Shown in pieces: positions 5,096-32,779 of a stretch of 32,779 bases of DNA. The notes under the pieces are model-generated. The model ran no database searches. It had not been told where the DNA came from and was given only the letters and a program-made list of their open reading frames with translations. Within the stretch, counting starts at the first letter, position 1, and each line of letters opens with the position of its first letter. A program made the translations under genes and the position numbers. This DNA is from an uncultured Eggerthellaceae bacterium (GTDB taxonomy: Bacteria > Actinomycetota > Coriobacteriia > Coriobacteriales > Eggerthellaceae). The stretch lies in NCBI GenBank assembly GCA_947626665.1, contig CANQTB010000004.1:1-32779 (forward strand). The letters run 5' to 3'.

Positions 5096-5170
5096 TGGAG
5101 CGGGCGACGGGAATCGAACCCGCGAATAGTGGCTTGGAGGGCCACGGCCTTACCGCTTGGCTACGCCCGC
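5096..5170 (-). tRNA. tRNA-Gly(TCC), CCA end encoded
   Basis: Read on the minus strand, it has acceptor arms GCGGGCG/CGCCCGC, a D-arm GCC-AAGCGGTAA-GGC, a perfect 5-pair anticodon stem GTGGC/GCCAC, a T-arm GCGGG-TTCGATT-CCCGT, discriminator T and a genomically encoded CCA. The anticodon loop is CCTCCAA, so the anticodon is TCC, which reads GGA codons. Position 33 is C instead of the near-universal U. The D-arm differs strongly from that of the broken chromosomal tRNA-Gly(TCC) at 4871, so it is not a simple duplicate. It lies between the presumed element end and the integrase gene, which makes it element cargo. Confidence 0.88.
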
Positions 5171-5181
5171 ATCATGATCGC

Positions 5182-5213
5182 ATTATACCCTAACGATCGG
5201 CCTGGTCCGTCAA
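5182..5213 (-). promoter_or_regulatory. promoter of the element-borne tRNA-Gly
   Basis: On the minus strand a TATAAT (5187-5182) lies 11 bases before the tRNA, and a TTGACG (5213-5208) lies upstream with a 20-base spacer. The -10 is perfect; the spacer is longer than ideal. The tRNA therefore need not depend on read-through from the integrase gene, which ends at 5216. Confidence 0.5.
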
Positions 5214-5215
5214 TG

Positions 5216-6634
5216 TCATGCTAGACCGGCACCGGCTCCCGCTGAGCGGATGTAGCTGATATAGCGTTGGCCAATGCCCAGGGCGGTGTTAGGCACGTAT
5301 CCAGCATAGAGGTCCAGTGTGTACGACGGACTCTCGTGACCCATGAGCACTGACACGGTCTTAATGTTCTCGCCGTTGGCGAGATTTTGGGTGGCATAGG
5401 TATGACGCAACGCATAAGGGCGGATGCCAGAGAACCCATTCTCGTCAATGAACTCGACCCATTGCTTTCTCCAGGTGTTGTAGGCATAGGGTGTGACGCC
5501 GTTCGACATGAGCGCCATGCGCATGGACGGAATGAGTCCCATGTCCTCAATCATCTCGGATTTCATGGCGATCCATTGCTTAGCCGTATCGGCGAATAAT
5601 GTATCGATGGGAATCGTCCGCCTACCGGCGTCGGTTTTTGGGTAGTCGACGATTTTGATGCCACCATGAGGAACGACGCTCGTGATGATGACCGAAGGTG
5701 CATCCCCAAACGCGAAGCTGCCCGCACGAAGGGCCTGCATCTCTTCAGGACGCATGCCGGTGCAAAAGAGGGCGAGGAGACTCACCTTGAACCATGTGAG
5801 CACAAGTTTCTCAACGGCCTCAAGAAACCGTGCGGCCTCGTCAGTCATCAAGGGATCGATGAGGGGCTTGTTAGACTTGAAGACGCGGCTCAAGAACCGT
5901 GCATGCGCAGGGTTTCGCGGTGTGTGCTCTTTATCAAGTCCGTAGTTGTAGAGCTCACGCAGGAACTTGAGAACCTTCGCTTGGGTGCTTGAACCGGCAA
6001 TCTTCGGCTCCTTAAGGGGCTTAACGAGTGACTTCTTCTCTTGAGCCCACTTGGCAGTCTTCCGGTTCTCCTCACGTGCCTTCTGTTTCTCTTCCGCCCA
6101 TTGGCGCGAAAGTCTAGGAATGGCGATCAGGCATGACTCTATGTCGTCCGGCGTCACCTCAAAAAATGGCTTATCGCCAATCGTGGGCCGAATGTAGCGC
6201 ATGAAGCCCCGCTCGTTTTTGATCGTTTCCGCAGAAACGGACCCATGACTTCTCACCTCGATGTACCGTTCAGCATACTCGGTGAGCGAAGCGGTGCAGT
6301 AGCCCTTGTCGTTGAGTGGAAAGGACGGTGTGCTCTTGCCAGCCGCCTCCATCTTCATCTCATAGGCGTCTTTAGCTCGAACAAGCTCGGCGTTCTTCTC
6401 ATCCTCAAACGCTCGCTCCGCGTCTTGAAGCTCGCGACGATTGAGAACGTAAACGCGCTTGGTGTATTTGATCTTGCCGTCGAGATAGACTTGGCAGTCT
6501 TCGGGCACGCGTATGCAGAGCTCATAGGCCGTCGTCCTTGGATCGGGCCGCTTTATCCTGGGTTTCCCCCTACGTTTTCTCGCCTCGTCGAGGTTGTAGG
6601 ACTTATCGCATCTCAACTGCTGCACAGAGCTCAC
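5216..6634 (-). CDS. int: tyrosine recombinase / integrase
   Basis: A 472-residue phage-type integrase that would insert and excise the element. An N-terminal arm-binding region and a core-binding SAM-like domain (about 110-260) precede the catalytic domain. Catalytic residues are visible: Arg295 in CTGMRPEE, a Lys near 334 in KTDAGRR, Arg410-His411 in YALRHTYAT, His433 in MGHES and the nucleophile Tyr443 in LDLYAGY. The His of the usual HxxR motif is Tyr407 here, a variant seen in other integrases. The gene overlaps the excisionase-like gene upstream by 32 bases, as in many int-xis pairs, and lies about 300 bases from the broken tRNA-Gly that is the probable attachment site. Confidence 0.93.
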   Translation of the reverse strand: MSSVQQLRCDKSYNLDEARKRRGKPRIKRPDPRTTAYELCIRVPEDCQVYLDGKIKYTKRVYVLNRRELQDAERAFEDEKNAELVRAKDAYEMKMEAAGKSTPSFPLNDKGYCTASLTEYAERYIEVRSHGSVSAETIKNERGFMRYIRPTIGDKPFFEVTPDDIESCLIAIPRLSRQWAEEKQKAREENRKTAKWAQEKKSLVKPLKEPKIAGSSTQAKVLKFLRELYNYGLDKEHTPRNPAHARFLSRVFKSNKPLIDPLMTDEAARFLEAVEKLVLTWFKVSLLALFCTGMRPEEMQALRAGSFAFGDAPSVIITSVVPHGGIKIVDYPKTDAGRRTIPIDTLFADTAKQWIAMKSEMIEDMGLIPSMRMALMSNGVTPYAYNTWRKQWVEFIDENGFSGIRPYALRHTYATQNLANGENIKTVSVLMGHESPSYTLDLYAGYVPNTALGIGQRYISYIRSAGAGAGLA

Positions 6635-12169: not shown

Positions 12170-15100
12170 TCAACGCTCAACGGCGCCGACGACGAGATGC
12201 TCGCCGAGACCGGTGCGTGCCCGCATGAGCTCGGTGATTCGCGCACGGGCGTCACTCAGGCTCTCCCGATGGGCGAATGCGCCGATCGGTGCCGGCTCTG
12301 CAATCGGCGCGCCATCGTCGCGGCGGGGTGTCGGCGCAGGGTCTCGCTCGACGTCATGCGAAGCCCCTTCGACGTGATCCCGCGCAGACTCATCCGAATC
12401 GGCGATATCAGAGGGCGCTTCATGGCCATCCATGTCAAGCGCTGCGTTGAGCTCGGCGAGCCGCGCGCTTTTGGACGTGAGCTCGGCTTCCTCGGCGAAG
12501 GGCTTGTCAAGCTCCGCCTTGGAGGCCTCCATTTGGTGATGGAGCTCCTGGAGGCGCTCTTTGGCCTCCTCCAAGCGATCGGGCAGGTGCGCGAGGGCGT
12601 TGTCGATGCGGATGAGATTTCCATGGACGCTTGTGCCAAGCTCGACGGTGTGGGAGGCCGCGCCCCGCAAGGTGAGCTTGTAGTCGAAGCCGGAAAACGA
12701 GGCCACCATCGAAAAGCCCCGATAGTTTCCGATATCGACTGGCTTGGAGAGCTTCGATTGCTTGCACGCCGCGATCATCGCCTCGCCGGCCTCGGCCTTT
12801 TCCGTGAAGAACCGGCCACCCACCGTCATGCCGCCAAACTCTCCATCGGGCGCTGTGTGGGCATTAAGCGTTTCAATGTCGCGCTCGTAAGCCGCAATCG
12901 ACTCCTCGGTTTTGGCGATGCGTTCGGGGATGCGCATGAGGATGTCGTCTTGAAGGCGGAAGCGCTGGCTTTCGAAGTCGGACTTGAGCACTTTGAGGCG
13001 CGCCACCTCGACATCGAGGTCCATCTTCTCCTTGATGCGCGCGTCTCCCGCGCATAGAGCCTTGATCTCGGCATAGGAAAGCGCCGTCTCGTCGATGTCC
13101 TCGCAGCTTCGCACGGGGGATTTCGAGGTCATGATCTGGCTGATGAACCTCTGCTTGTTTTCCACGGTCTGCCAAAGATAGGCGTCAAAGGTGTTTTCGG
13201 TGACGTATCGATAGATGCGCACGAGAGGGTTGGCGTTTCCCTGGCGCACGATACGCCCCTTTCGCTGCTCCAGGTCACCTGGCCTCCACGGGCAATCGAG
13301 ATCGTGCAGGGCGATGAGACGATCCTGCACGTTTGTGCCGGCGCCCATTTTCTGGGTGCTTCCCATAAGCACCCGCACGCTGCCCGCGCGCACGGAGGCG
13401 AAGAGCTCCTTTTTGCGAACTTCGGTGTTGGCGTCGTGAATGAAGGCGATCTCATCTTCGGGAATGCCGCCCGCGATGAGCTTTGCCTTGATGTCGTCGT
13501 ACACCGAAAACTCGCCCTCGCCATCGGCTTTACCCTTGGGCGTTGAGATGTCGCAGAACACGAGCTGGGTGAGCTTGTCCGTGGCTCCCTCCCGATAGAT
13601 GGCGAGGATGTTTTTCACGCAGAGGTTCACTTTGCTTCCCGGATCGTCGGGCAAAAGAGGATTCACGATGCGCTGGTCGAGCCCGAGCTTGCGGCCATCC
13701 GAGGTGATCTTGAGCATGTTGTCGACGCTTGGGTCCACCAGCCGATTGTGCACCTTGGCCGCGCGCTCGGAGAGCGTGGCAACCATCTCGCGCTGGTGAT
13801 CGGTGGGCTTGGCCACGACGTTGTGATATTCCACATCGGGAACATCGAGCCCGAGCTCGTCTGCGGTCTTGATGTCTGCGGCTTCCTTCCAAAGCGTCAT
13901 GAGCTCAGGGACGTTGTGGAACTTGGCGAAGCGGGTGCGGGCGCGATACCCCGTGCCCTCGGGCGCAAGTTCGATGGCGGTCACGGTCTCGCCGAAGACG
14001 CTCGCCCAGCTATCGAAGTGCGCAAGCCCCCGCTCTGTGAGCATGTCGTGCTGAAGGTAGCGCATCATGGTGTAAAGCTCGGTCATGGAGTTTGACACAG
14101 GCGTGCCGGTGGCGAACACGACACCGCGTCCGCCGGTGATTTCGTCGATGTAGCGGCACTTGAGCAGCATGTCGCTTGACTTCTGGGCCTCCGAGGTGGA
14201 AAGGCCGGCGACGTTTCGCATCTTCGTGTAGAGAAAGAGGTTTTTGTAGGAGTGGGCCTCGTCCACAAAGAGCCTGTCGCAGCCGAGCTCTTCGAAGGTG
14301 ACCACATCGTCTTTACGCTCCTCATTGTTGAGCTTCTCCAAACGGGCCTGAAGCGACTTGCGCGTCTTTTCCATCTGCTTGATCGTATAACGCGCGCCCT
14401 CCTCCTCTTTGAGCTCGGCGATGCCCTGCTCGATTTCATCGATCTGGGCCGTGAGAAAGCGGACTTGACGCTCGCGTGAGAGCGGTATCCGCTCCAGCTG
14501 ACTGTGACCGAGGATGACCGCATCCCAGTTCCCCGTGGCGATGCGGGAGCAGAACTTCTTGCGGTTCGCGCGCTCGAAGTCGCGCTTTTTGGCCACGAGG
14601 ATGTTTGCCGCCGGATAGAGCCGCAAAAACTCCGACGCCCATTGCTCGGTGAGGTGGTTCGGCACGGCGATTAGCGATTTCGTGCAAAGCCCGAGGCGCT
14701 TCGATTCCATGGCGGCCGCTGCCATCTCGAAGGTCTTGCCGGCCCCCACCTCGTGGGCCAAGAGCGTGTTTCCACCATAGAGGATGCGCGCAATGGCGTT
14801 TGTCTGATGCGGGCGCAGCGTGATCTCGGGGTTCATGCCAGCGAAGGCTATGTGGCTGCCGTCGTATTCCCGAAGCCTCACGGCGTTGAAAAGCTCGTTG
14901 TACTTTTGCGTGAGCGCGCGCCTGCGCTCCGGATCGCTCCAGACCCACGAGCTCCAAGCGTCTTTGATCATCTGCTGCTTTTGCTGGGCTTTGGTGGTCT
15001 CGGCCTTGTTGAGAACGCGGTGCTTTTTGCCCTCTGCGTCCTCCACGGTGTCATAGATGCGCACATCGCGCAGATTCAACGTGTCTTCCAGGATGCGGTA

Positions 15101-18100
15101 GGCATTAGCCCGCGGGGTGCCGTAGGTGGTGCGCGCCGCCACATCCCGATACGACGTGCGCGTCTTTCCCTCCACCCGCCATTCACCGGTGACGTTTGCG
15201 TACTTCACGCGGACGTTGCGCCGCTCATAGCGGGGCGTCTCGAACGTCTCGTGCATGAACTGCTCAACGTAGGACACATCCACCCAGGTGGCCCCAAGCC
15301 TGACATCGATCTCGGTGGCATCGAGGTCTTTGGGCTTCGCCTGTGTGAGCGCCTCGATGTTTGAGCGCACCGACCCTCGACGCTCATCGTTCTCATCCAT
15401 CGCTTCCAGCAGGTTTTCGTGGGCGCCGAGCTTTTTCCGTATGTCGCCGGATAAAAACTCATCGGCGGCAACGTAGGGAGCGCTCTCCTGTGAAAAGTCT
15501 TGGAAGATGACACCTTGAAGCTCGTCTACGAGCGCAGACGCCTCACGTCCCGTGAGACGCTCCATAAGTTCCACGTCGACGCGCCCCGCCTCGGCGATGG
15601 AGACCGAGAGCGCCTCGGCGGCGGTGTCGGCGTGATCGGCCGGAACGTGTGAGCGGATGGTGCGCTCAAAAAACATATCCGCTTTACGAGAGGGGTTTCC
15701 CTCTTCATCGAGAATCTCCAATGAGCAGAGGAGCGGATATGAGCTGTCATCGGAAAACGCGAGCGAGTTTGCGCGGGAGTTGAGAGCACCGAAGCGTTTG
15801 GTGAAGCTGTCATAGAGGATGGTGAGCTCGGCCTGGGCGTCATGCACATCATCATCGGTTGCATCTTTCAGCTGTAGATCGATGAGGTGCCGCGTGCAAT
15901 CGCGAAGCGCGATCATTCCCTTCACGCGCTCGGCGGCGGTCGCATTGAGTGTGCGCCGTGTCATGACGCTTCCCTCGCGGAAATAGATGTCGCTACCGAC
16001 AAGCGCAAATGAGAAGTTTTTAACCGATGGGTTGGCGGGAATCGTCTCCCGTGTCGCCTCTGTCCGGTTGGCCTCGTCGATGCTTAAGGCCTCCGCAGGC
16101 TCGAAGGTGCCGCGAATCGAGCGCACGGCGTGCTCCAAAAGCTCGCCGAGTTCGGCGCCCGCGAAGGACTTCACCGTGAGCTCGTCGTGGCCGTATTGGG
16201 TGGAGCGATCGGTGATCTCTCCGAGCACCATCTCGGGGTGATCGATGAAGTAGCGGTTGAGTGTGTAGCCTTCGGGCGTTGTTCCCACCTCGACCCAGCT
16301 CGGAGTCTCGGCAGAAGGAATCTCGCGCTTTTTCAGAAAGAGGATGTCTGAGACCACCTCGGTGCCCGCATTGGCCTTGAAGGCGTCATCGGGAAGGCGT
16401 ATCGCGCCCAAAAGATCGGCGCGGCTCGCGATATAGCGGCGGGCGTCGTCTTTTTGCTTGTCCATGGTGTAGCGCGAGGTGACAAAGGCCACGATGCCGC
16501 CCGGTCGCACCTGATTAAGCGTCTTTGCGAAGAAGTAGTCGTGGATGGGAAAGCCGTAACGTTCAAAGGCCCTATCGGCCACCTGGTATTGGCCAAAGGG
16601 CACGTTTCCGACGGCGAGATCGAAGAAGTCCTCGCGCTCGGTCTTCTCAAAGCCCGTGATCTCGATTTGAGCTTCGGGATAGAGCAGCTTCGCGATGCGC
16701 CCGCTTAGAGAATCGAGCTCCACGCCATAGAGCTTCGAGTCTTTCATGGACTCGGGCAAAAGCCCGAAGAAGTTTCCAATGCCGCACGCGGGCTCAAGGA
16801 CGTTTCCACCTTGAAAGCCGAAGGACTCGATCGCGCTATAGATGGCCTTTATGACCGTGGGACTCGTGTAGTGAGCGTTTAAGGTCGAGGCCCGCGCGAG
16901 CGCGTACTCGTCATCGGTGAGCAGCTCTTTAAGCTCGGCGTGTTCCTGCGCCCAGGACGGCTTCGCCTCATCGAACACATCGGGGATGCCTCCCCAGCCC
17001 ACGTAGCGTGAAAGCGTCTCTTGCTCATCGGGCGTGGCGGGACGGTTTTCAGCCTCGATGTGCTTGAGCGTGCGTATGGCCTCCACGTTCATCTGATACT
17101 TGGCCTTGGGGCCGCCGTGGCCAAGCGCGTCATCTGTGATGCGGAAGTTCGTCGCCCGCTGTATCGGCTTCGCCTCTACGACGCTTTCAGGTGCGCCACC
17201 ACGAACACCAGTGCTGATGTCTGGCATCTTTTCAGTCTCGCCAGCGAGATCGAAAAGTGATTGCTCGCCGTCAAGCTGCGCGATTGGAGGAAGGGCGCTT
17301 GAGAGCTCTTCTCGGGATTCCTCAAAGCGTTTTCTCTCATCGGGCGTGAGGTAGTCATCGCGCAAGGCGATTGAGCGCAGATGACGCTCAAGCTCGGGCC
17401 AGCCAAACGTCGCCTCTTGGCGCACGTCCCCGAAGGTCCAAACGCGAAGACCGCGCGCTGAATAATCGGCGAAAGCGCTCGTCCCATCATGAAGCGTGAT
17501 CGAGTGGCCGCCTATGCCGTATTCGCCCTTGAGGAACTTGATGGCGTCTTGGGCGCTCGGCCGCCGTTCATACAGTGCGCGGATGCGCAGCTTGCCGTTC
17601 TCAAACCCGCTTCCTCGGCGAAGCTCCGCTTCGATGTCGGCGGGTGAAAGCGCAAGCACGCCCACGGGCGTGACAGCATTCGACTCAACGGATGCGGAGG
17701 GCTCTTCGTCAAGATTGAGGTTTAGTTGCAGATGAGCTCGTCGATCACGATTTCCTCCGCTTGCGCCCGGCAGGTGTTCATGAGCCCCACCCACCTCATC
17801 TGATCGTGGGCTTTGAGGTTCTCGGTCACTCCCGCCCGCTGCGCGAACGTGCTCGTGAGTTCCTCCATCCGGCTCCTCGCCGTCTCGTCGATCTCGATCA
17901 GGTGAGCCGTGAGCGTCCCCGAGAGCAGAAGCTCGTTGTAGAGGACCGGTCGATGTTCCTTGAGATAGCGCTTCCTCATGGAGCCCCACCGGGTGAGCGT
18001 CACCTCGGTCTTCGGGCTTTGACTCTCGTCGCTTCTGTTCATCTGCTCGTCCATGGTCATTCTCCTCACTTACATTACGGCTTTTGGTGGCGCGTCCTAT

Positions 18101-18796
18101 ATCTTGCAAAACATCACGCGCAAGCGTTGAGGTGGCAACGCCAAGCGCACGCACAGCCTCGGGCGTCGCAAGCACCGTCGCTTGTGCGACGTTCGCTTCG
18201 AGCGTGCGCAATCCATCTGGATCAAGTCCGCAACGGGCGTAGAGCACTCGCGTGACGCTCATCCCTAATGCCTGCGCAAACGCCTCTCGGTCATCCTCGC
18301 TGGCGTCGGGGCCGAGCGTGTCGCGTCCGTTGTCGCGAAGCCACGCATTCCCGAGCCTATGGGCGATCTCTGAGAGCTGGCGTTCAAGGCCTGCGCTTGC
18401 ATCGGCATCGTAGGCCTTGGAAAGTTCAAGCGCCACGCTGCGTTTTTGAGAATCTTGAAGCCGCCACTGGCCAAGCGGGCGCGCATTGGCGCGCATAGCG
18501 GTGTCGGACACGTCGAACACGTAACGCAGTCGCGGCGCATCCCCGGCGTCATCTATGAGCGCTATGCCCTTTGAGCCGCGCTTCACATAGCGGCCCATCT
18601 TCTGAGACCAGAAATCGTATTCGGCGAGCGCGGTGGCATCAGGGCGCTGGGCGAAGATGAGCACCTGCTCGGCGAAGGTGTACTTGTAGTTTTGCGCCGC
18701 CGTGTCGAGAAAGCGCGCCCACTGCTCGCCATCGCCTATGAATCCGTCGATGGTGCGATGGGCGAGCTCGGTGTAGCTATCGAGTTTGGTGGCCAT
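12170..18796 (-). CDS. giant adenine methylase-SNF2 helicase (DarB/COG4646 type)
   Basis: A 2208-residue protein typical of integrative elements and related to phage P1 DarB. The N-terminus (about 1-110) has the LtrC/ArdC-like pattern FLDTAAQNYKYTFAEQVLIFAQRP and WSQKMGRYVKRGSKGI. A methylase domain follows, with the SAM motif EPACG (668-672) and catalytic motif NVPFG (731-735). The SNF2 helicase has Walker A GAGKT (1351-1355), DEAH (1512-1515) and motif VI QRKGRIVRQGN (1844-1854). The C-terminal part is coiled coil. Host residues about 248-359 form a low-complexity, charged linker that coincides exactly with a nested tnpV gene in another frame. Homologues are thought to protect incoming DNA from restriction. 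The ATG at 18796 has only a weak GGGATGG upstream. Confidence 0.92.
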   Translation of the reverse strand: MATKLDSYTELAHRTIDGFIGDGEQWARFLDTAAQNYKYTFAEQVLIFAQRPDATALAEYDFWSQKMGRYVKRGSKGIALIDDAGDAPRLRYVFDVSDTAMRANARPLGQWRLQDSQKRSVALELSKAYDADASAGLERQLSEIAHRLGNAWLRDNGRDTLGPDASEDDREAFAQALGMSVTRVLYARCGLDPDGLRTLEANVAQATVLATPEAVRALGVATSTLARDVLQDIGRATKSRNVSEENDHGRADEQKRRESKPEDRGDAHPVGLHEEALSQGTSTGPLQRASALGDAHGSPDRDRRDGEEPDGGTHEHVRAAGGSDREPQSPRSDEVGGAHEHLPGASGGNRDRRAHLQLNLNLDEEPSASVESNAVTPVGVLALSPADIEAELRRGSGFENGKLRIRALYERRPSAQDAIKFLKGEYGIGGHSITLHDGTSAFADYSARGLRVWTFGDVRQEATFGWPELERHLRSIALRDDYLTPDERKRFEESREELSSALPPIAQLDGEQSLFDLAGETEKMPDISTGVRGGAPESVVEAKPIQRATNFRITDDALGHGGPKAKYQMNVEAIRTLKHIEAENRPATPDEQETLSRYVGWGGIPDVFDEAKPSWAQEHAELKELLTDDEYALARASTLNAHYTSPTVIKAIYSAIESFGFQGGNVLEPACGIGNFFGLLPESMKDSKLYGVELDSLSGRIAKLLYPEAQIEITGFEKTEREDFFDLAVGNVPFGQYQVADRAFERYGFPIHDYFFAKTLNQVRPGGIVAFVTSRYTMDKQKDDARRYIASRADLLGAIRLPDDAFKANAGTEVVSDILFLKKREIPSAETPSWVEVGTTPEGYTLNRYFIDHPEMVLGEITDRSTQYGHDELTVKSFAGAELGELLEHAVRSIRGTFEPAEALSIDEANRTEATRETIPANPSVKNFSFALVGSDIYFREGSVMTRRTLNATAAERVKGMIALRDCTRHLIDLQLKDATDDDVHDAQAELTILYDSFTKRFGALNSRANSLAFSDDSSYPLLCSLEILDEEGNPSRKADMFFERTIRSHVPADHADTAAEALSVSIAEAGRVDVELMERLTGREASALVDELQGVIFQDFSQESAPYVAADEFLSGDIRKKLGAHENLLEAMDENDERRGSVRSNIEALTQAKPKDLDATEIDVRLGATWVDVSYVEQFMHETFETPRYERRNVRVKYANVTGEWRVEGKTRTSYRDVAARTTYGTPRANAYRILEDTLNLRDVRIYDTVEDAEGKKHRVLNKAETTKAQQKQQMIKDAWSSWVWSDPERRRALTQKYNELFNAVRLREYDGSHIAFAGMNPEITLRPHQTNAIARILYGGNTLLAHEVGAGKTFEMAAAAMESKRLGLCTKSLIAVPNHLTEQWASEFLRLYPAANILVAKKRDFERANRKKFCSRIATGNWDAVILGHSQLERIPLSRERQVRFLTAQIDEIEQGIAELKEEEGARYTIKQMEKTRKSLQARLEKLNNEERKDDVVTFEELGCDRLFVDEAHSYKNLFLYTKMRNVAGLSTSEAQKSSDMLLKCRYIDEITGGRGVVFATGTPVSNSMTELYTMMRYLQHDMLTERGLAHFDSWASVFGETVTAIELAPEGTGYRARTRFAKFHNVPELMTLWKEAADIKTADELGLDVPDVEYHNVVAKPTDHQREMVATLSERAAKVHNRLVDPSVDNMLKITSDGRKLGLDQRIVNPLLPDDPGSKVNLCVKNILAIYREGATDKLTQLVFCDISTPKGKADGEGEFSVYDDIKAKLIAGGIPEDEIAFIHDANTEVRKKELFASVRAGSVRVLMGSTQKMGAGTNVQDRLIALHDLDCPWRPGDLEQRKGRIVRQGNANPLVRIYRYVTENTFDAYLWQTVENKQRFISQIMTSKSPVRSCEDIDETALSYAEIKALCAGDARIKEKMDLDVEVARLKVLKSDFESQRFRLQDDILMRIPERIAKTEESIAAYERDIETLNAHTAPDGEFGGMTVGGRFFTEKAEAGEAMIAACKQSKLSKPVDIGNYRGFSMVASFSGFDYKLTLRGAASHTVELGTSVHGNLIRIDNALAHLPDRLEEAKERLQELHHQMEASKAELDKPFAEEAELTSKSARLAELNAALDMDGHEAPSDIADSDESARDHVEGASHDVERDPAPTPRRDDGAPIAEPAPIGAFAHRESLSDARARITELMRARTGLGEHLVVGAVER
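17722..18054 (-). CDS. tnpV: TnpV-like protein, nested out of frame in the methylase-helicase gene
   Basis: A 110-residue open frame wholly inside the 2208-codon gene, on the same strand but in another frame. It reads as a bona fide protein: WGSMRKRYLKEHRPVLYNELLLSG, then LIEIDETARSRMEEL and a C-terminal WVGLMNTCRAQAEEIVIDELI. This pattern and length match TnpV, a small protein of unknown function first named in Tn4451-type elements. GAGGAG (18067-18062) lies 7 bases before the ATG at 18054, an ideal ribosome binding site. The overlapping frame encodes a low-complexity linker, so the TnpV frame appears to be the constrained one. An ATG at 18060 is a less well placed start. Confidence 0.82.
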   Translation of the reverse strand: MDEQMNRSDESQSPKTEVTLTRWGSMRKRYLKEHRPVLYNELLLSGTLTAHLIEIDETARSRMEELTSTFAQRAGVTENLKAHDQMRWVGLMNTCRAQAEEIVIDELICN

Positions 18797-21166: not shown

Positions 21167-21549
21167 AACCCGCATTATCCAACAACGTCAAACCCCAGAA
21201 ATGCACTCGTTGCACGTCGTTGGACGTCCGCCGCCCACTCAATGCTCCTATCGTGTAAGAAGCCGTCTGAGAGCCGAAATCTCAATGAACCGACCAAACA
21301 CTCATAAGGAAACATCCAAGGCTCTCAGGCGGCGATCGCAGCAAGTATCCCATGGCGTTAACACGCCATGAAACTTGGGGCAGCCGGCGATGTTTACACC
21401 CAAACCACCCTCTCGGATGGCGATTGGAAGCAATCATCGCTGCGCGGCCGCCCGAAAGCCCGAACGGTCGGTGACGCAGGCGCGCCATCGCCGTCGAGCT
21501 TTGCGGGGGAGGCCCCGCGCCCCTCGAAGATGCAAAGGTGAGGATTTCG
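21167..21549. other. candidate transfer origin region upstream of mobC
   Basis: These 383 bases lack a gene and lie directly before mobC and the relaxase, the usual place of oriT. Three inverted repeats are seen: TCCAACAACG (21178-21187) with CGTCGTTGGA (21215-21224), one mismatch; GCCGTCTGAGAGCC (21262-21275) with GGCTCTCAGGCGGC (21320-21333), one mismatch; and the perfect CATGGCGT-TAAC-ACGCCATG (21351-21370). The nick site cannot be identified by eye. Confidence 0.5.
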
Positions 21550-21954
21550 ATGGACACGATGGTCATGGTGGGATTTCGACTGGAGCGCTCAGACGGAGCG
21601 TGGCTCACCGAGCGCGCGAACGCGACCGGCCTTTCGGTTTCGGTCTATCTGCGCCAGCTCGTGAGACTCGCTCGTGCCACCGATGACGCCTTGGGCGAAG
21701 CCGCCCTCTTCGAGCGCCACACCCAGCACCTCATCTTTCGAGAGCTCCGGCGCCAGGGAGTGAATCTCAACCAAGGCGTCCATGCCTTAAACACCATCGC
21801 CATGCAGTTGGAGCGAGGGCGAAGCACGGGCGATTGGATGCGCGAGCTCTTCGAGCGCGCGTCACTTGCCTTGGATATGGCTACCGACGCCCATGACGAC
21901 ATCGAATCGACCATCGAGACATTGAATGACCGAATCCTTCTAGGAGGCGCGTGA
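21550..21954 (+). CDS. mobC: mobilization accessory protein MobC
   Basis: A 134-residue protein with the ribbon-helix-helix start (VGFRLERSDGAWLTERANATGLSVSVYLRQLVRLA) and the MobC-family core (ELRRQGVNLNQGVHALNTIAMQLERG). MobC proteins bind oriT and help the relaxase open the DNA strands. ATG 21550 is set by AAGGTGAGG 7 bases upstream; a GTG at 21538 is a less likely start. Its TGA stop overlaps the relaxase ATG by one base, so the two are translationally coupled. Confidence 0.87.
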   Translation: MDTMVMVGFRLERSDGAWLTERANATGLSVSVYLRQLVRLARATDDALGEAALFERHTQHLIFRELRRQGVNLNQGVHALNTIAMQLERGRSTGDWMRELFERASLALDMATDAHDDIESTIETLNDRILLGGA

Positions 21955-23246
21955 TGGCAATCCTCAAGCAGATCGCCGGACACACAGGTTGCGCCCGCAT
22001 CAAGCACTACCTGGAGCGCGGAGGCCGCGCCATCGAGCGCGAGTTCATGAACTTCTACTGGCAGCTCGGCGAAAACGAGATCGAGCCTGCCGATCACGCT
22101 CCCGAGGGCTTTGACTGGGCGGTCGCCATGGATGCAACCCGTGTGTCCGAAAACAACCACCTGCCCTATAACGGTCGCCTCGCGCGCACCTTCAAGCACT
22201 TCGTCATTTCTCCCGACCCCAAAGACAGAATCACCTTCGATGAGCTGAAAGCGCTTGCGCACACCTGGCTTACAGAAGAGTTTCCCGACTTTGAGGCTGC
22301 CATCGTCTATCACGACGACAATGATGGTCACATCCCGCACGCTCATATCGTCGTGAACAACACGAATCTCAAAACCGGACGCCGCATGCACACAGACGAC
22401 GCCCGCGATCTCAACCGCGATCTCCAGAAAATGGCCAAGGCCATGGAGCTCGCCCATTTCGATGACGACCGAAAGCGGGCCTTGGCAAAATCCCAGATAG
22501 GCCCCTCCAAAACGCCGCGCACCCATCAGGCCATCCACTACAGTCGCGCCGAGGAGCGCATAGCGCGGGAGGGCGGCTACTCGTGGCTTTCAGACATTCG
22601 CTCGCGAGTGGATGCGGCCAAGCACCTTTCTGCCGATGTGGTCGAGTTCAAGAAGAACCTCGAAACCCTCGGCGTCACGGTCGAGGACTCCAAGAGCCGC
22701 CGCCATCGTCCCGATTGGGTATTCAAACTTGCTGACCAGCCCACCTGTCGTGTGTGCGGGGAGAAGCTCGGCGCTCTTTATGGGCGCACGGAGCTGACAC
22801 TCTTCTTCAACCGGCAAGGGAGAAACGCCTTATCCACACGGGGCGAGCTTCTCGATCACGCAAAGACCGCCGTCACGTTAAACGACCTCTCAGAGCTTCA
22901 CGAGCTCGCCCGTTCACTTTCCCTTTGCTCACGCCATCACATCGTCTCGATCAGGGGCATTGATGAGGCTATCGCCCGCACCGAGAAGCTTGCTTCCAGC
23001 GCCGAAGGACGCCGAAGCATAGCGCTCTCCCAACAGATCGAGGAGCTTAAGCGTGCCAAGGACTTCTTGGCCACCCGAAACCTCTTGCCGCTGCGTGGGA
23101 CTGCGACCGCTCCCGCCAAACCCGAACGCACAGGCCGAACGAGTCCCCGAGGAGACGATGGCGTTTACCGCAACACCCACCCGTCGTCATCGTCACGTCC
23201 GACTATCGAGCCGCAACGCCGCGATGCCGTAGAGAGGGGCCGCTAG
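21954..23246 (+). CDS. MOBP-type relaxase
   Basis: A 430-residue relaxase/mobilization nuclease that would nick oriT and stay bound to the 5' end during transfer. The N-terminal domain (about 1-170) has a candidate nucleophile Tyr19 in IKHYLERGGR, the FKHFVISPDP strand and the metal-binding histidine motif YHDDNDGHIPHAHIVVN with His120, His126, His129 and His131. A CRVCGEKL CxxC pair lies near 264. The C-terminal part is basic and unstructured. The ATG overlaps the mobC stop and has AGGAGG upstream. No coupling protein or type IV secretion gene is in the window, so the element may be mobilizable only, or these genes lie further right. Confidence 0.92.
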   Translation: MAILKQIAGHTGCARIKHYLERGGRAIEREFMNFYWQLGENEIEPADHAPEGFDWAVAMDATRVSENNHLPYNGRLARTFKHFVISPDPKDRITFDELKALAHTWLTEEFPDFEAAIVYHDDNDGHIPHAHIVVNNTNLKTGRRMHTDDARDLNRDLQKMAKAMELAHFDDDRKRALAKSQIGPSKTPRTHQAIHYSRAEERIAREGGYSWLSDIRSRVDAAKHLSADVVEFKKNLETLGVTVEDSKSRRHRPDWVFKLADQPTCRVCGEKLGALYGRTELTLFFNRQGRNALSTRGELLDHAKTAVTLNDLSELHELARSLSLCSRHHIVSIRGIDEAIARTEKLASSAEGRRSIALSQQIEELKRAKDFLATRNLLPLRGTATAPAKPERTGRTSPRGDDGVYRNTHPSSSSRPTIEPQRRDAVERGR

Positions 23247-24579: not shown

Positions 24580-26817
24580 CTAATCTTGATGATTGGCGCC
24601 TATGGTTGTCTTCGCTTTAGCCACCACAGCGTCACACCAATCGACCACATAAAACGGCACCTGGTCAAACTCCTGCTCGTCGAGTTGATAGAGGTAGCTT
24701 CCGCCAATATGGCACTCCTCATCAGCAAATCTTTTAATGATGTTTGTGCTATCGGCAAGGCTCGCATCTCTTTTAAGCATCAAACGCACGAGTAGGAGTT
24801 TGTCATGCGAGGAAAGATCAGGTTCGTCATAAAGACCTATAAGATGGCCCATGCAATCGGCATAAAATTTGACTTCATCCCAAAAATCAATCTTCCAGCC
24901 AGTTAAATCCTTGACAAGGTTTTCACACATCTCGACATCGCGCTTATGTTCGTCAGCCCACCCCAAATCTTTCATTGTTGCATCGCGATCTTTTCCATGA
25001 ATGATGCTGGAGAGAAGAGCAAAGGTCCACGCATACCGCGTTCGGCGTTCTAAACTGTTTTTCCGAAGCAGTTCGCAGTATTGCCTAACTCTCACATATC
25101 CAAATATGCGAGGACGATCCTTGCACCGTTCAATTTCTTTTCGTAGCAATTGTGTGTATGGAGCCATGGAATCATTTCTCAGTTCTTTGGAGCAGAGCTG
25201 CCCTTTTTTGTTGATGCTGAGAAACAGTCCTTTCGTTGATCTATTTCTGCGACCAGGTATCTTAATCGTGAGTAGGTCCCTTACGACCAGTGGGTCGTGT
25301 GTCGCCACGACTACGGTTTTGCGATTCAGGTTTTCCGAAAACACTGTCCGATGAGAAGAGAACAATGCATATAGAACGCCGTAACGCTTGTCGTAGTCAA
25401 ATGACGAAATTGGGTCATCGAGTACAATGAGCCCATCGGGTGCTTTTATGGCTTCATGCATGAATAAGATCAGTGACAAGGCGTTTTGTTCGCCGTAACT
25501 TAAGGCTTCTTTGGGGTTGGTCACAGACTTGGAAGCCCCAATGGGTACGAGGAATATCTGAGCTTCTGAAGACTGAATATTGCACTCAATCTTTATTTCG
25601 TAGTTGTACCCGCACTGTGTGAGGAAGCGGTTGATCTCTTCCACATGTCCTTCAATACTCGACGCAACTTGCGCAATGAGCTTCTTGCTGTCTTTATTAA
25701 GGTCAGCTTGTGCTGCAACAATCTTGTTGATTGCGTTTATGACACCTTTTAGCGCCTTTTCTGGTATGGTTGTTGACCCTTTCTTTGTTTTCAGAAATAA
25801 ATTGCAGCTAGAGAGCGTAATAGCACAAGGCTCTAACTCGGAAATAAGCTCAGCTGCTTCGATGTTCTGGGGCTTCTGCAGCGCTTCCCTGATCATGTTG
25901 ATAGCTTCAAGCGTCTCTTTCACCTTTATTTCCATCGACGCTAACTGTTCGAGTTGCAAGGCATCCGGTGCTTTATTGCTAATGATGATCTCCCTAAGAA
26001 GATGGGCGCATGGCCTTGAGAGAATTTCCCTATGCTCGTGATAGGCAGAAGCGACTTTCTCCCACTGCTTGATGGCATCGTTCGAACGGGACGTATCGTA
26101 TTCAAAACAATCTTTGATCCGCTCTGGATCTCTAGTGCCGCAATAAGGGCATATGTCTGTAGGTGTTGACCCATGAGGCTCCGTTCGCCATTTAAGCCAC
26201 AGGGCTTTATCGGCATCCACCAATCCTTTCACAACGGGGTGAAGGAATTGAGGCAGTGGTTCCAAGGGTGATCCGTTTTTATATGCTTTAATAATTGGTG
26301 CAGCAGCGGTAAAAGCGCCATCTTTGTTGGTCTTGCCAAGATTGCTTTGAAGACTTGAAAGTATTTTTTCGGTCTTCATCATTTCATCGGAATCAAGCGC
26401 ATGCCGCAGAGCGACAATATATGCATCCCGCTTCTTTTCTTGCTTGCGAATCTCTTTGTTCCGCACGTAGAGTTCGAAGGCGTTTTCATGAATAGAACTG
26501 CTTACAAAACAGTGATCTTGAATCCATTCGTCGTTGAAAAAACATAGATTCTTTGGCTTCGGAAAGACTTTAGCTTCTGGCTTTAACGCAAAATTGTTTG
26601 CCTCTCTGAAAGCGAATGGCTCAAGATCGGTTGCACCCTCAACGTCATCTAAAACTGCATGTTCCAAAGCCTTGCAAAGCGTCGTTTTCCCAGTTCCGTT
26701 TGATCCAAAAAAGATGTTCAGACTGTTACGTGCGATCACGAGAGGACTTGATTCGAGTGACCTAATGTTTCTGCAGTTTTGTAGTTCTAACGAATAACAA
26801 TTCTTCAATTTCACCAC
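24580..26817 (-). CDS. AAA ATPase with CxxC hook, candidate RloC/PrrC-like anticodon nuclease
   Basis: A 745-residue protein with ABC/SMC-type ATPase parts: Walker A GSNGTGKTT (38-46), a helical region with a CPYCG hook (223-227), signature LSYGEQ (439-444), Walker B LIVLDDP (463-469) and H-loop His507. The early FFNDEWIQDH block is typical of the AAA_13 group that includes PrrC and RloC. RloC combines such an ATPase and zinc hook with an anticodon nuclease whose active site in PrrC is Arg-x3-Glu plus a distant His. Here Arg578, Glu582 (RQYCE) and His607 (SIIHG) fit that layout, though the spacing to His is shorter than in PrrC. The start is a GTG at 26817 behind GGAG. The gene is visibly more AT-rich than its neighbours, a sign of separate acquisition. 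Another AAA_13 defence ATPase remains possible. Confidence 0.7.
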   Translation of the reverse strand: MVKLKNCYSLELQNCRNIRSLESSPLVIARNSLNIFFGSNGTGKTTLCKALEHAVLDDVEGATDLEPFAFREANNFALKPEAKVFPKPKNLCFFNDEWIQDHCFVSSSIHENAFELYVRNKEIRKQEKKRDAYIVALRHALDSDEMMKTEKILSSLQSNLGKTNKDGAFTAAAPIIKAYKNGSPLEPLPQFLHPVVKGLVDADKALWLKWRTEPHGSTPTDICPYCGTRDPERIKDCFEYDTSRSNDAIKQWEKVASAYHEHREILSRPCAHLLREIIISNKAPDALQLEQLASMEIKVKETLEAINMIREALQKPQNIEAAELISELEPCAITLSSCNLFLKTKKGSTTIPEKALKGVINAINKIVAAQADLNKDSKKLIAQVASSIEGHVEEINRFLTQCGYNYEIKIECNIQSSEAQIFLVPIGASKSVTNPKEALSYGEQNALSLILFMHEAIKAPDGLIVLDDPISSFDYDKRYGVLYALFSSHRTVFSENLNRKTVVVATHDPLVVRDLLTIKIPGRRNRSTKGLFLSINKKGQLCSKELRNDSMAPYTQLLRKEIERCKDRPRIFGYVRVRQYCELLRKNSLERRTRYAWTFALLSSIIHGKDRDATMKDLGWADEHKRDVEMCENLVKDLTGWKIDFWDEVKFYADCMGHLIGLYDEPDLSSHDKLLLVRLMLKRDASLADSTNIIKRFADEECHIGGSYLYQLDEQEFDQVPFYVVDWCDAVVAKAKTTIGANHQD

Positions 26818-28870: not shown

Positions 28871-31756
28871 TCACCCGTTTTCGATCACATACGGAAAACT
28901 CAACGGCCCAACATAGAGCTCCCTTGCCTGATCGCCCTCGAAATCCATGATCGACTGTTGCGTCTCCGCATCAAGCAGATCGAGGAACCGATACTCCCCG
29001 TCAGCCATCTTGCTTACGCTTAACACCTGCACGAACACTTCCGGGTAGTCCCGCAGGTATTCCACGTATCCGCGCAGCTTCGGTATCGCGTCGCTTAAGA
29101 AATCCCCGTGCGGGTCCACAATCGCCGGTCTGATAACCCCATCTTTCCGAACGAAGAATATGAAATCGGGCCGCAACGACCGTCTTCCGTCGGGCATCGC
29201 ATAGGGGATGCTGAACACGCTCGGCTGATAGTTGTTGGGGATGCGGTAAAACGCCACCGTACGCTCTCGCGCCATCTCAGTGCGCAAAACATCGATCTCC
29301 CAGTTGTTAAGCGCCAGAGGCGCAAGGCCATCGGCAGGGTCGTAAAGGATGTGCCGTGCATAACGCGGCAGGTTTCCATCGGCGATCAGGTTAGTGGGAA
29401 AGTCCACCTCGCTATCCCGGATACCACTCGTCAGTTGACGCAGGGTGTCAAAGTGTTGCCGCTCTTCCTCACTGAGGTAAGCCCGCTCCGTCGAATACTT
29501 GTCGAAATACTGCTTGCGCTTGGTGTCGGCCCAGCGCTCCAACGCCTTCACGATGGGCTCGGTGCGGGCCACGCTGGCGAGAATCAGGTTGACATCCCAG
29601 TTCTCCAGCCCCTCGCCCAAAATCTTCTGCTTGCGATAGGCGTTCACCAGGTCTTTTCCGCCAAACTCCACGAGTGCCCGCTCGGCTGCCTTGTTAAGGC
29701 CATATTCGTCGATCAATGGGCTTTCACTTCGTCGCGTTACTGCATCATCGTGACGACGGTCGATGGTGATGACCTGCATTTCCGCCACTTCGACGTTATG
29801 GCGCTCTTTCTTATACTCCGTCGGATAGGCGACGATCTCGGCATCGACGCGATTGCAGAACTCGTTGCGCACATCAGCGCCGGCGCCTTTGTCGAGCCCC
29901 GTTTCCATGAGAAGCGTGGCCGTGTCGATGAGCGATACGAACTGATTTCTCGGCTTCTTGGGATTGATGCGCTTGCGAAGTGTTCCCCAGGCGGCTCGTA
30001 TCCCTTTGAGCTCCTCGGCGGTGAATACCTCCACAGGCCCAGTGTGCTCTTCTTCGGCACTCGCTTCTTCAGTCGCGCTGTCCGGTGGCTTCTCATCATT
30101 CTCATGTTGAGCAGTGGCGCGTTTTTGCCCAGGATGTATCGTTTTCTGCCTCGGCACCGTTGCGGTCTGGTTTTGCGGCGCAGGTTGATGGTGCTCGCTT
30201 ACGTGTTCGGTCTCGGTCTCGTCAACGTTTTCGCTTTCGTCATCATCGGTCGTCAATTCCATCGAGGGCTGTTCGTTGGTGACTTCCTCAGTGACAACCT
30301 CCTCGGCGATTGCCTCCTCGATCTCCTCATCCTCGGGCTCCATCATCATCAACTGCCAACTGATGGTGACCGGATTCGTAAGTACCTCTTTGACGACAGA
30401 CCCGCCGATGAAGTCGTCGCTTTTGCCCGTCAGGTAGTCGATGACCGATTGGGTGGCGTCTGGGTCGAAAGCCGGTAGAAAGCACGCTACTGAGTTGAGC
30501 GTTTCGTCGGCTTCAACGCGACGTGCCAACGGCGTTCTCACCATGCGCCCGATGAGTTGCGCGATATAGGTGTCGTCACTGCGCCTGCGCTGTGAGTAGA
30601 TCACTTCAGCACGCGGGCAGTCCCAGCCGTTCGAGATAGCCTCCTTGGCAAACAGTACCCGCACGCTGCGCGTCTCTTGGATGTTTTCGGGCTCCATGTA
30701 GGGCATGAAGTAGTTGGGCGCGGGCAGGCGATCTTTATGCTCGCCGAATACGTTGGCGAAGCAGGTCTGCGTGTTCAGGTGCGGCAACTTGCGCGTTATC
30801 TGATCGCAGAGCGATTTCAGCGCCGCGTCCGTGATGTTGTCCGCCACCTGCACGACGAGCAGAGGAGCGACAGCGGGGGTGATACCCTCGGCATCACAGT
30901 AAGCCTTCCAGGCTGTCTCTGCTGTTTTGAGCCGCTCACAGGCCATGTCGAGGTACTGGTGCTCAACGGCGTCGTCTTCTTCGGGAACGCGGAGCTCGAT
31001 GGTGTCTTTCAGCAACCCCGATTCCTGCACATCTTTCGGGGACACGTCCACGGCGGGCATGAGCGTCCGATTGCCGCGCTGCCTCATCGCCTGCTCAAAC
31101 CGCTGAGGCGTCGCCGATATGCCGACAACGATGGGCATGGGCGAGCGTCCTTCGAAACCATCGATCAGGTGCGCATAGATCGTCGCCGTATCCCGTTCGC
31201 TTGTGGATGCATTCGTGCCAATGCCACGGTGCGCCTCGTCGATAAACAGATAGAGGTGACGGCTCGGGTTTTGTATCGTGGCGTTGAGGATGTCCCAAAA
31301 TATCCGCCCGCCGTTGAGCTCGGTCGCCTTACTGAGGATGCTGTTGCGGGAGAGCATCTGCTTGTTGAGGAAGTACACGTGACGGGGTTCGAGTGTTTCA
31401 TGGGTCGCACCGAAGTCACTGTCAACCACTTCAAGGTGGCGTTCGTCAGTGAACCAACTCGCGAGCTTGTCGGAGACTTCCACGAACCGGGCTCGTGTCT
31501 GATCGTTGAGGCTCGGCGAATCTGAGAGCCAAAGCACGCACGCCTTCGGGTCGGCTTCTATGCCCGCATCTGCATCACCAAAGAACAATCCCTCGATGAT
31601 TGCCGCTGCCATGACAGTCTTTCCAGCACCCGTCGGCGCGGTCAGGCTCACGGCAGAGAGGCTTTCGTACTGGTCATAGTTGCTGCGCATGATGATGAGC
31701 CGCTTTTGCAGCTCGTAGACGGCATCTTCCTGAAAGGCTTTGAGCTCGACCTTCAT
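28871..31756 (-). CDS. type III restriction-type helicase-nuclease (Res-like)
   Basis: A 961-residue DEAD/DEAH helicase of the ResIII class. Seen in order: Walker A APTGAGKT (40-47), DEAH (173-176), motif III SAT (214-216), motif VI QLIGRMVR (400-407), an unusually acidic low-complexity linker (about 474-572), a helical region and a C-terminal nuclease-like domain with LRPDFIFF and AIVDPHG (about 860-882). In type III systems the Res subunit cuts DNA only together with the Mod methylase. The ATG overlaps the stop of the upstream methylase stub as TAATG, the usual mod-res arrangement. Because the mod gene is broken here, the protein is probably inactive as a restriction enzyme unless supplied in trans. 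The acidic linker has no counterpart I recall in classical Res proteins. Confidence 0.85.
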   Translation of the reverse strand: MKVELKAFQEDAVYELQKRLIIMRSNYDQYESLSAVSLTAPTGAGKTVMAAAIIEGLFFGDADAGIEADPKACVLWLSDSPSLNDQTRARFVEVSDKLASWFTDERHLEVVDSDFGATHETLEPRHVYFLNKQMLSRNSILSKATELNGGRIFWDILNATIQNPSRHLYLFIDEAHRGIGTNASTSERDTATIYAHLIDGFEGRSPMPIVVGISATPQRFEQAMRQRGNRTLMPAVDVSPKDVQESGLLKDTIELRVPEEDDAVEHQYLDMACERLKTAETAWKAYCDAEGITPAVAPLLVVQVADNITDAALKSLCDQITRKLPHLNTQTCFANVFGEHKDRLPAPNYFMPYMEPENIQETRSVRVLFAKEAISNGWDCPRAEVIYSQRRRSDDTYIAQLIGRMVRTPLARRVEADETLNSVACFLPAFDPDATQSVIDYLTGKSDDFIGGSVVKEVLTNPVTISWQLMMMEPEDEEIEEAIAEEVVTEEVTNEQPSMELTTDDDESENVDETETEHVSEHHQPAPQNQTATVPRQKTIHPGQKRATAQHENDEKPPDSATEEASAEEEHTGPVEVFTAEELKGIRAAWGTLRKRINPKKPRNQFVSLIDTATLLMETGLDKGAGADVRNEFCNRVDAEIVAYPTEYKKERHNVEVAEMQVITIDRRHDDAVTRRSESPLIDEYGLNKAAERALVEFGGKDLVNAYRKQKILGEGLENWDVNLILASVARTEPIVKALERWADTKRKQYFDKYSTERAYLSEEERQHFDTLRQLTSGIRDSEVDFPTNLIADGNLPRYARHILYDPADGLAPLALNNWEIDVLRTEMARERTVAFYRIPNNYQPSVFSIPYAMPDGRRSLRPDFIFFVRKDGVIRPAIVDPHGDFLSDAIPKLRGYVEYLRDYPEVFVQVLSVSKMADGEYRFLDLLDAETQQSIMDFEGDQARELYVGPLSFPYVIENG

Positions 31757-32076
31757 TATCGCAACGCTCCCTCGGCTGCTATCTCAAAATTGCGAAGGTA
31801 GCTCTCGTAGAGCTGTACCACATCGCGCCCGACGAGCGTCTGATTGATGCTCTGATACCGCCGCTCATCGTCGGTGACCACGTAGATCGTCTCAATATCT
31901 GGCCGTTTCTCGACTGCCTCGATAAACTCCTTGGCGCTGGCGTAGTCGAATAGGATGGCATAGGCATCAGCAATAGCGTAGTTGCGGCCGCCCTGGGTTT
32001 CAATGATGCGCCCTTTGCTAATGTGCGATAAAGAAGTAATAGAAGTGTAAAAAATTTTGCCGTTCCTATCCGGCAC
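31756..32076 (-). pseudogene. C-terminal stub of a type III-like DNA methylase (mod)
   Basis: The 106 codons lack any methylase motif but look like the C-terminal end of Mod-type methylases that pair with Res-like helicases: GGRNYAIADAYAILFDYASAKEFIEAVE, IYVVTDDERRYQSI and VVQLYESYLRNFEI. A TAA immediately precedes the first possible codon (GTG at 32076), so the frame does not continue upstream. The next sequence is the end of a serine recombinase gene, so the methylase has evidently been split by insertion, with its N-terminal part expected beyond the right edge. It overlaps the helicase gene as TAATG. Confidence 0.68.
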
Positions 32077-32096
32077 TTAGGGCTGTGTCGGATAGG
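32065..32096. repeat. inverted repeat at the probable end of the inserted element
   Basis: CCTATCCG (32065-32072) and CGGATAGG (32089-32096) are perfect 8-base arms with a 16-base spacer. They straddle the boundary between the methylase stub and the recombinase gene. They may be the recombinase binding arms of an attachment site or a terminator for the recombinase gene. Confidence 0.5.
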
Positions 32097-32103
32097 TCAG
32101 GCG

Positions 32104-32779
32104 TTAGGCTTCCGGCAAGTCTATCTTGCCGACAAAGCTGTAATAAATCTCAATGTCCTGCCTGCGGGTGCCGTTCTCGTCATAGCTGCACTCATGCACG
32201 ACGATTTTCTCAATCATTTCCCGCAAGAGGGTGGGGGTCAATTCTTCAAAAGCAAGGTGCTTTCTCACAATCCCCATGAATTTCTCGGCGTTGACGGTGG
32301 CGGCCTGCGACTTGGAAAGTTCCTCCTGCAAAGCGGCAGCCCGGTCTTTCAGTTCCCGCTGCTCCTGCTCATAGTCCGCCGACAGCTCCATGAAACGCTC
32401 GTCGCTGATTTTGCCGCTTACATTGTCCTCATACAGCCGCTTGATAATGCGGTTCACTTCGGCAATGCGTGTCTGGGCCTGTTCAAGCTGCTTCGTGGCT
32501 GCGGCGGTCTTTCTCTTGCCGCCGATTTCGTTCTGCTGGATGAGCAGCTTTACAAAGCGGCTCTCATGCCTGGCGGCGTATTCCGTCACTTGCCGGAGAT
32601 TGGAAAGCACGCCCGCCGTCAAAAGGTCGGTGCGGATAAAGTGTGCCGTACAGTCACGGGTACGCTTCTTGTAGCTGCCGCAGATATAACAGTCCTGCTT
32701 GCGGTTCTTGTTCTGATACCGCTGCTGATACAGCACATGGCCGCAGTCGGCGCAGAACAGCATACCAGAGAACAGCCCC
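32104..32779 (-). CDS. large serine recombinase, C-terminal part (runs off right edge)
   Basis: The visible 225 codons are the C-terminal region of a TnpX/TndX-type large serine recombinase. They include the zinc-ribbon-like FSGMLFCADCGHVLYQ with CYICGSYKKRTRDCTAHFIR, a long coiled coil (KKRTAAATKQLEQAQ region to LQEELSKSQ) and a C-terminal domain ending in ECSYDENGTRRQDIEIYYSFVGKIDLPEA. The reading frame is open to the window edge, so the catalytic Ser domain lies outside. Codon use differs from its neighbours. These enzymes move elements such as Tn4451 and Tn5397. Its gene end lies 28 bases from the methylase stub, so it most likely marks the terminus of a second, nested element. Confidence 0.88.
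   Translation of the reverse strand, partial: GLFSGMLFCADCGHVLYQQRYQNKNRKQDCYICGSYKKRTRDCTAHFIRTDLLTAGVLSNLRQVTEYAARHESRFVKLLIQQNEIGGKRKTAAATKQLEQAQTRIAEVNRIIKRLYEDNVSGKISDERFMELSADYEQEQRELKDRAAALQEELSKSQAATVNAEKFMGIVRKHLAFEELTPTLLREMIEKIVVHECSYDENGTRRQDIEIYYSFVGKIDLPEA

Follow-up and report, generated by a model that had tools for sequence, protein, structure and literature searches.

Insertion of an IME_Rho_tet-family element into a type III restriction-modification mod gene on an apparent mobile island

Introduction

The main text of the paper that describes IME_Rho_tet presents it as an integrative mobilizable element (IME) that carries a serine recombinase, a relaxase, and tet(W) or tet(32) (Sidibe et al. 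2026, PMC12904643), that has 21-bp terminal inverted repeats (TIRs), and whose 3' boundary lies 81-90 bp beyond the stop codon of the recombinase gene (PMC12904643). According to the same main text, 45% of resolved insertions are in MAFF2 genes and many off-target genes are hit as well, and transfer still needs experimental validation, excision and transfer being undemonstrated; restriction systems receive no mention there (PMC12904643). Serine-integrase IMEs in streptococcal ICEs insert in and disrupt maff2, snf2, and traG, and are nested in larger elements (Coluzzi et al. 2017, PMC5357655). In the type III restriction-modification (R-M) enzyme EcoP15I, the C-terminal domain (CTD; aa 539-644) of one Mod contacts Res, dimerization is mediated by other domains (the N-terminal and MTase domains), and Mod2 methylates alone (PMC4490356).

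Here we describe a junction between these two kinds of system, at the right-hand end of a 32,779-nt contig from an uncultured Eggerthellaceae bacterium (CANQTB010000004.1; hereafter the window, that is, the whole stretch of DNA analysed). An initial annotation had proposed that a second mobile element with a large serine recombinase is inserted in a mod gene, leaving Res without Mod, and that the insertion could act as a genetic switch. The results establish the insertion and assign the switch a much lower standing.

Results

The window contains an intact res gene preceded by the end of an interrupted mod gene, on the minus strand:

28871-31756, minus strand: res, type III restriction subunit, 961 aa, intact (PF04851, ResIII, E 1.5e-12)
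31756-32013, minus strand: true mod remnant, that is, the last 85 codons (31759-32013) and the stop; C-terminal domain of a ~709-aa type III methylase
31756-32076, minus strand: chimeric 106-codon ORF comprising ~20 codons of element end and 85 codons of mod; no gene counterpart in homologues

Res, reported as intact by the initial annotation, proves to be so: it aligns full length with plasmid Res, it conserves the TGAGKT and DEAH helicase motifs, and its residues 1-956 are 50-51% identical to Res of six genomes from the same taxonomic order. The res start overlaps the mod stop as TAATG. The 85-codon remnant matches positions 627-706 of 709 of the PADLOC MTase_III model PDLC03645 (E 2.3e-12), the profile match reaching 32022, and tblastn likewise matches it to the type III Mod C-terminus. 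In alignments with full-length plasmid Mods from Dietzia, Glutamicibacter, Xanthomonas, Deinococcus, Micrococcus, and Microbacterium, each with Res directly downstream, the alignment opens at the invariant residue G627. The closest relative found for the remnant, the Mod C-terminus of locus L180, is 58% identical, and at the junction L180 has the codon AAA (Lys), followed by GGC CGG ATT ATA. The possibility that the stub is an independent small gene was checked and rejected: in homologues, the stub is the C-terminal domain of a Mod of ~709 aa. The contig holds 85 codons, not a complete Mod with catalytic motifs, and the locus is an interrupted remnant of a member of the type III R-M systems. 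The bin (1.97 Mb, 241 contigs) contains no PF01555 methylase and no other Mod fragment or intact mod copy, the contig ending at 32779 inside the inserted element, probably because the element is common to many genomes.

Simple repeats occur in the mod genes of relatives from the same taxonomic order. A G10 tract in L183 (genome G332) and a G tract in L180 (G210) lie at frame breaks, a G9 tract is in frame in L181 and L182 (G330 and G306), and (ATTT)4 lies at a frame break in L189 (G152). These genes look phase-variable, and tract slippage appears to be the more ordinary switching route in this Mod family, as in phasevarions.

The DNA upstream of the remnant has the features expected of the end of an element of the IME_Rho_tet family:

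32014-32779, minus strand: right end of an IME_Rho_tet-family IME, cut by the contig end
32104-32778, minus strand: C-terminal 224 aa of a 539-aa large serine recombinase (Zn_ribbon_recom and DUF4368)
32046-32104, minus strand: strong terminator-like hairpin followed by a U tract, in the stretch from the recombinase stop to the end of the element (-21.9 kcal/mol, z -5.1)
32016-32039, minus strand: 3' TIR, 20 of 24 bases matching the left end of a complete copy, L096
32014-32015, minus strand: AA crossover core common to the element end and its target, placed from the ends of other copies and from rejoined flanks

The 766 bp ending at 32014 are 99.7-100% identical in DNA sequence to those of more than 20 other gut genomes, and more than 50 further genomes match at 87-93%. 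Nearly all of these matches end within a few bases of 32014 (80 or more independent copies), and past 32014 the flanking DNA differs in every genome, a shared MAFF2-type target excepted. Because the matches stop at 32014 and the flanks differ, the mobile element ends at 32014. The recombinase fragment is identical to the C-terminus of the 539-aa recombinase in Sharpea, Gemmiger, Slackia, Butyrivibrio, Anaerotruncus, and others, and the element end lies 90 bp after its stop codon. Element end and start of Mod homology meet at exactly the same place, and since 766 bp of identity stop at a known element end, precisely where Mod homology begins, chance is excluded. We conclude that, as first proposed, an element with a large serine recombinase is inserted in mod.

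The border itself requires revision. The recombinase gene does end 27 bases from the start of the 106-codon ORF, but the element continues beyond that point to 32014/32015. The ORF and the in-frame TAA just upstream of its GTG start (32076) are both present as annotated; because the element end is at 32014/32015, however, the TAA, the GTG, and the first ~20 codons are element sequence, and 85 codons, not 106, are Mod. The AA core is presumed, from sequence, to supply the last two bases of a mod Lys codon, AAA, which the AAA codon of L180 fits.

Complete copies in other genomes have the left end AATGCTCATGTACGG and the right end TTAGCAAA. The ends are inverted repeats (20 of 24 bases) and, when joined, read AGCA-AA-TGCT, symmetrical about AA. 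One form, of 12,012 bp, carries a tet(W)-like gene, a MobA/VirD2 relaxase, RepA_N, an IstB/DnaC-like ATPase, and the 539-aa recombinase; a second form (L093) shares the right 6.3 kb only. The remainder of the element is absent from the bin. The IME copy L100 (G148), of 12,012 bp, is flanked by MAFF2 on the left but not on the right, which points to rearrangement or misassembly. The IME copy L097 (G145, Enorma) has been shortened to 3.6 kb by an internal deletion and retains both termini, its left part with tet(W), and the end of the recombinase gene. Positions 7987-8510 of L008, the erm(50)/tet(W) plasmid pTZC1 of Cutibacterium acnes, hold an unannotated right-end remnant of the IME, 87% identical, that adjoins tet(W).

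The target is of MAFF2 type (consensus CAGGGCATGAAGCA) in 56 of 77 readable copies and is another site in the other 21. Off-target genes, as judged from translations, include MATE, MerR, RecQ-like, and adhesin-like genes, and inspection of these sites by eye showed no enrichment of defence genes. The mod site resembles the consensus weakly, and better than ~90% of the AA sites in the window. In L096, the flanks rejoined around AA form a single uninterrupted 452-codon MATE ORF. Because rejoining restores the MATE frame, integration in L096 was conservative, and conservative insertion at AA makes precise excision mechanically plausible.

The locus as a whole looks like an element nested within an apparent tRNA-Gly island, the other features of which are:

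5096-5170, minus strand: tRNA-Gly(tcc), presumed left edge of the outer island
5216-6634, minus strand: tyrosine integrase adjoining the tRNA, presumed left edge of the outer island
21538-23246, plus strand: NikA/MobC-like and MobA/VirD2 relaxase genes (relaxase at 21951-23246)

The tRNA and integrase (5096-6634) are likely the left edge of the island, which includes the relaxase and several defence-like genes; its right edge would be beyond the contig. A 2208-aa protein (12170-18796), with a methylase-like part at residues ~640-830 and an SNF2/DrmD-like helicase part at ~1320-1890, has weak similarity to DISARM, BREX, and MADS proteins, and a 745-aa ATPase (24580-26817) matches the PADLOC candidate defence family PDC-S06 (E 9e-114).

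Discussion

The observations are very probably explained by insertion of a known IME in the type III mod gene of a mobile island, that is, by an ordinary off-target landing of a promiscuous, spreading transfer element, from which excision may be possible. According to this explanation, an IME_Rho_tet-family element landed in mod, and its insertion, presumed conservative by extension from the copy in which conservative integration is demonstrated, would leave mod codons 1 to ~626 on its far side, beyond the contig, and the final 85 codons beside intact res; these 85 correspond to the domain that contacts Res in EcoP15I. Conservative insertion would place mod codons 1 to ~626, ending xAA, directly before AATGCTCATG. 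A deletion beyond the element is also possible, the left element end and the N-terminal half of mod being absent from the bin.

The hairpin and U tract at 32046-32104 lie on the strand and on the side that lead into the mod remnant and res, and the element's own terminator would cut both off from upstream transcription, probably silencing res too. The contact of Mod CTD and Res in EcoP15I, together with a terminator ahead of the remnant and res, implies that restriction is most likely lost; by analogy with EcoP15I, removal of the Res-contacting domain probably suffices. In the most likely outcome, restriction would be off, and modification would be off as well or would rest with a truncated methylase working alone; modification may survive from the truncated Mod, or may be lost. 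The initial description of the locus as Res without Mod is accordingly not established: the missing part of Mod lies beyond the contig end, every catalytic motif is encoded upstream of the cut, and res itself is probably silent.

A more specific outcome, tentative but the best placed of the alternatives, is that a truncated Mod of ~626 aa plus ~14 element codons methylates but cannot engage Res, yielding an r- m+ cell. In homologues the catalytic motifs (DPPYN and FSGSGTT) and PF01555 precede the cut by a wide margin, a frame continuing into the complete copy L096 at its left end gains 14 codons before reaching a stop, and the division of labour in EcoP15I, in which the ModA CTD contacts Res, dimerization is by the N-terminal and MTase domains, and Mod2 methylates alone (PMC4490356), is consistent with activity of such a protein. 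Against this, the N-terminal part of Mod is beyond the contig, the CTD may be needed for folding, and the left end of the inserted copy is assumed to be identical to that of L096. That this state would in addition be reversible by excision, the genome remaining marked while restriction is off, is unlikely; if true, a transfer element landing there would disarm host restriction without losing protection.

It is equally improbable that the operon was already decayed, mod having become a pseudogene before the IME inserted. Relatives' Mods are often frameshifted, but here the remnant is open, invariant residues and the TAATG overlap are kept, and Res is intact.

Very improbable, on present evidence, is the proposed genetic switch, in which excision of the IME from a fraction of the population would restore intact mod-res, so that R-M alternates between on and off states. 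Precise excision is within the capacity of large serine recombinases that use an AA core, the rejoined target of L096 is a clean ORF, and the phase-variation signatures in relatives' Mod (G9/G10 and (ATTT)4) suggest that switching of this family may be favoured. After excision, the rejoined mod would read as its 5' part followed directly by GGGCGCATCATTGAA. Nevertheless, the circular attP junction, TTAGCA-AA-TGCTCATG, was not found in viral contigs (the element left end is in five of these, none with mod, and the mod target flank is in none); the bin lacks an intact mod copy, the opposite end of the element, and any N-terminal piece of mod; and off-target sites elsewhere (21 of 77 copies) hit unrelated genes. 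A limited literature search found no earlier case in which an element of this kind switches an R-M gene, and the main text of the IME_Rho_tet paper itself calls for experiments, excision and transfer being undemonstrated (PMC12904643). Rejoining of mod upon excision is predicted by conservative AA-core insertion in relatives, but an excised form was not found. We regard the insertion as solid and the switch as a hypothesis.

An assembly chimera, in which an element end common to many gut genomes was wrongly joined to the mod-res contig of a 241-contig MAG, is rejected as barely credible, the join being at the exact recombination base of ~80 independent copies, where Mod homology starts.

We return to off-target insertion of a known IME, from which excision could restore mod. 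The junction documents, to the base, a tet(W)-spreading IME family in an R-M gene of another mobile island, and it indicates that transfer elements can disarm defence genes by insertion. By recombinase type, TIR, boundary, and preferred MAFF2 target, the inserted element is, as judged from its sequence, a member of IME_Rho_tet, a known kind that also includes TnB1230 and the ICE_RbtetW_07 insert. The visible 224 aa of recombinase and the DNA are identical to those of complete tet(W) copies, the 3' boundary is 90 bp after the recombinase stop, and the right end forms a terminal inverted repeat with the left end of L096. The MobA-type relaxase and tet(W) are known from copies with identical ends, 766 bp being visible here; the difference is the target, a type III mod gene. 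IMEs of streptococcal ICEs similarly disrupt genes and are nested in larger elements, but are site-specific for ICE genes (PMC5357655), whereas the gene disrupted here is an R-M gene. The disrupted system resembles EcoP15I-like type III R-M (PDLC03645) in its mod-res order, its ResIII helicase, and the identity of the stub as the Mod C-terminal domain, and its homologues have a beta-class methylase; here, mod is interrupted. Relatives resemble phase-variable type III mod genes (phasevarions, PMC2667262) in having G9/G10 or (ATTT)4 tracts at mod frameshifts; the interruption at this locus, in contrast, is an element insertion and not tract slippage.
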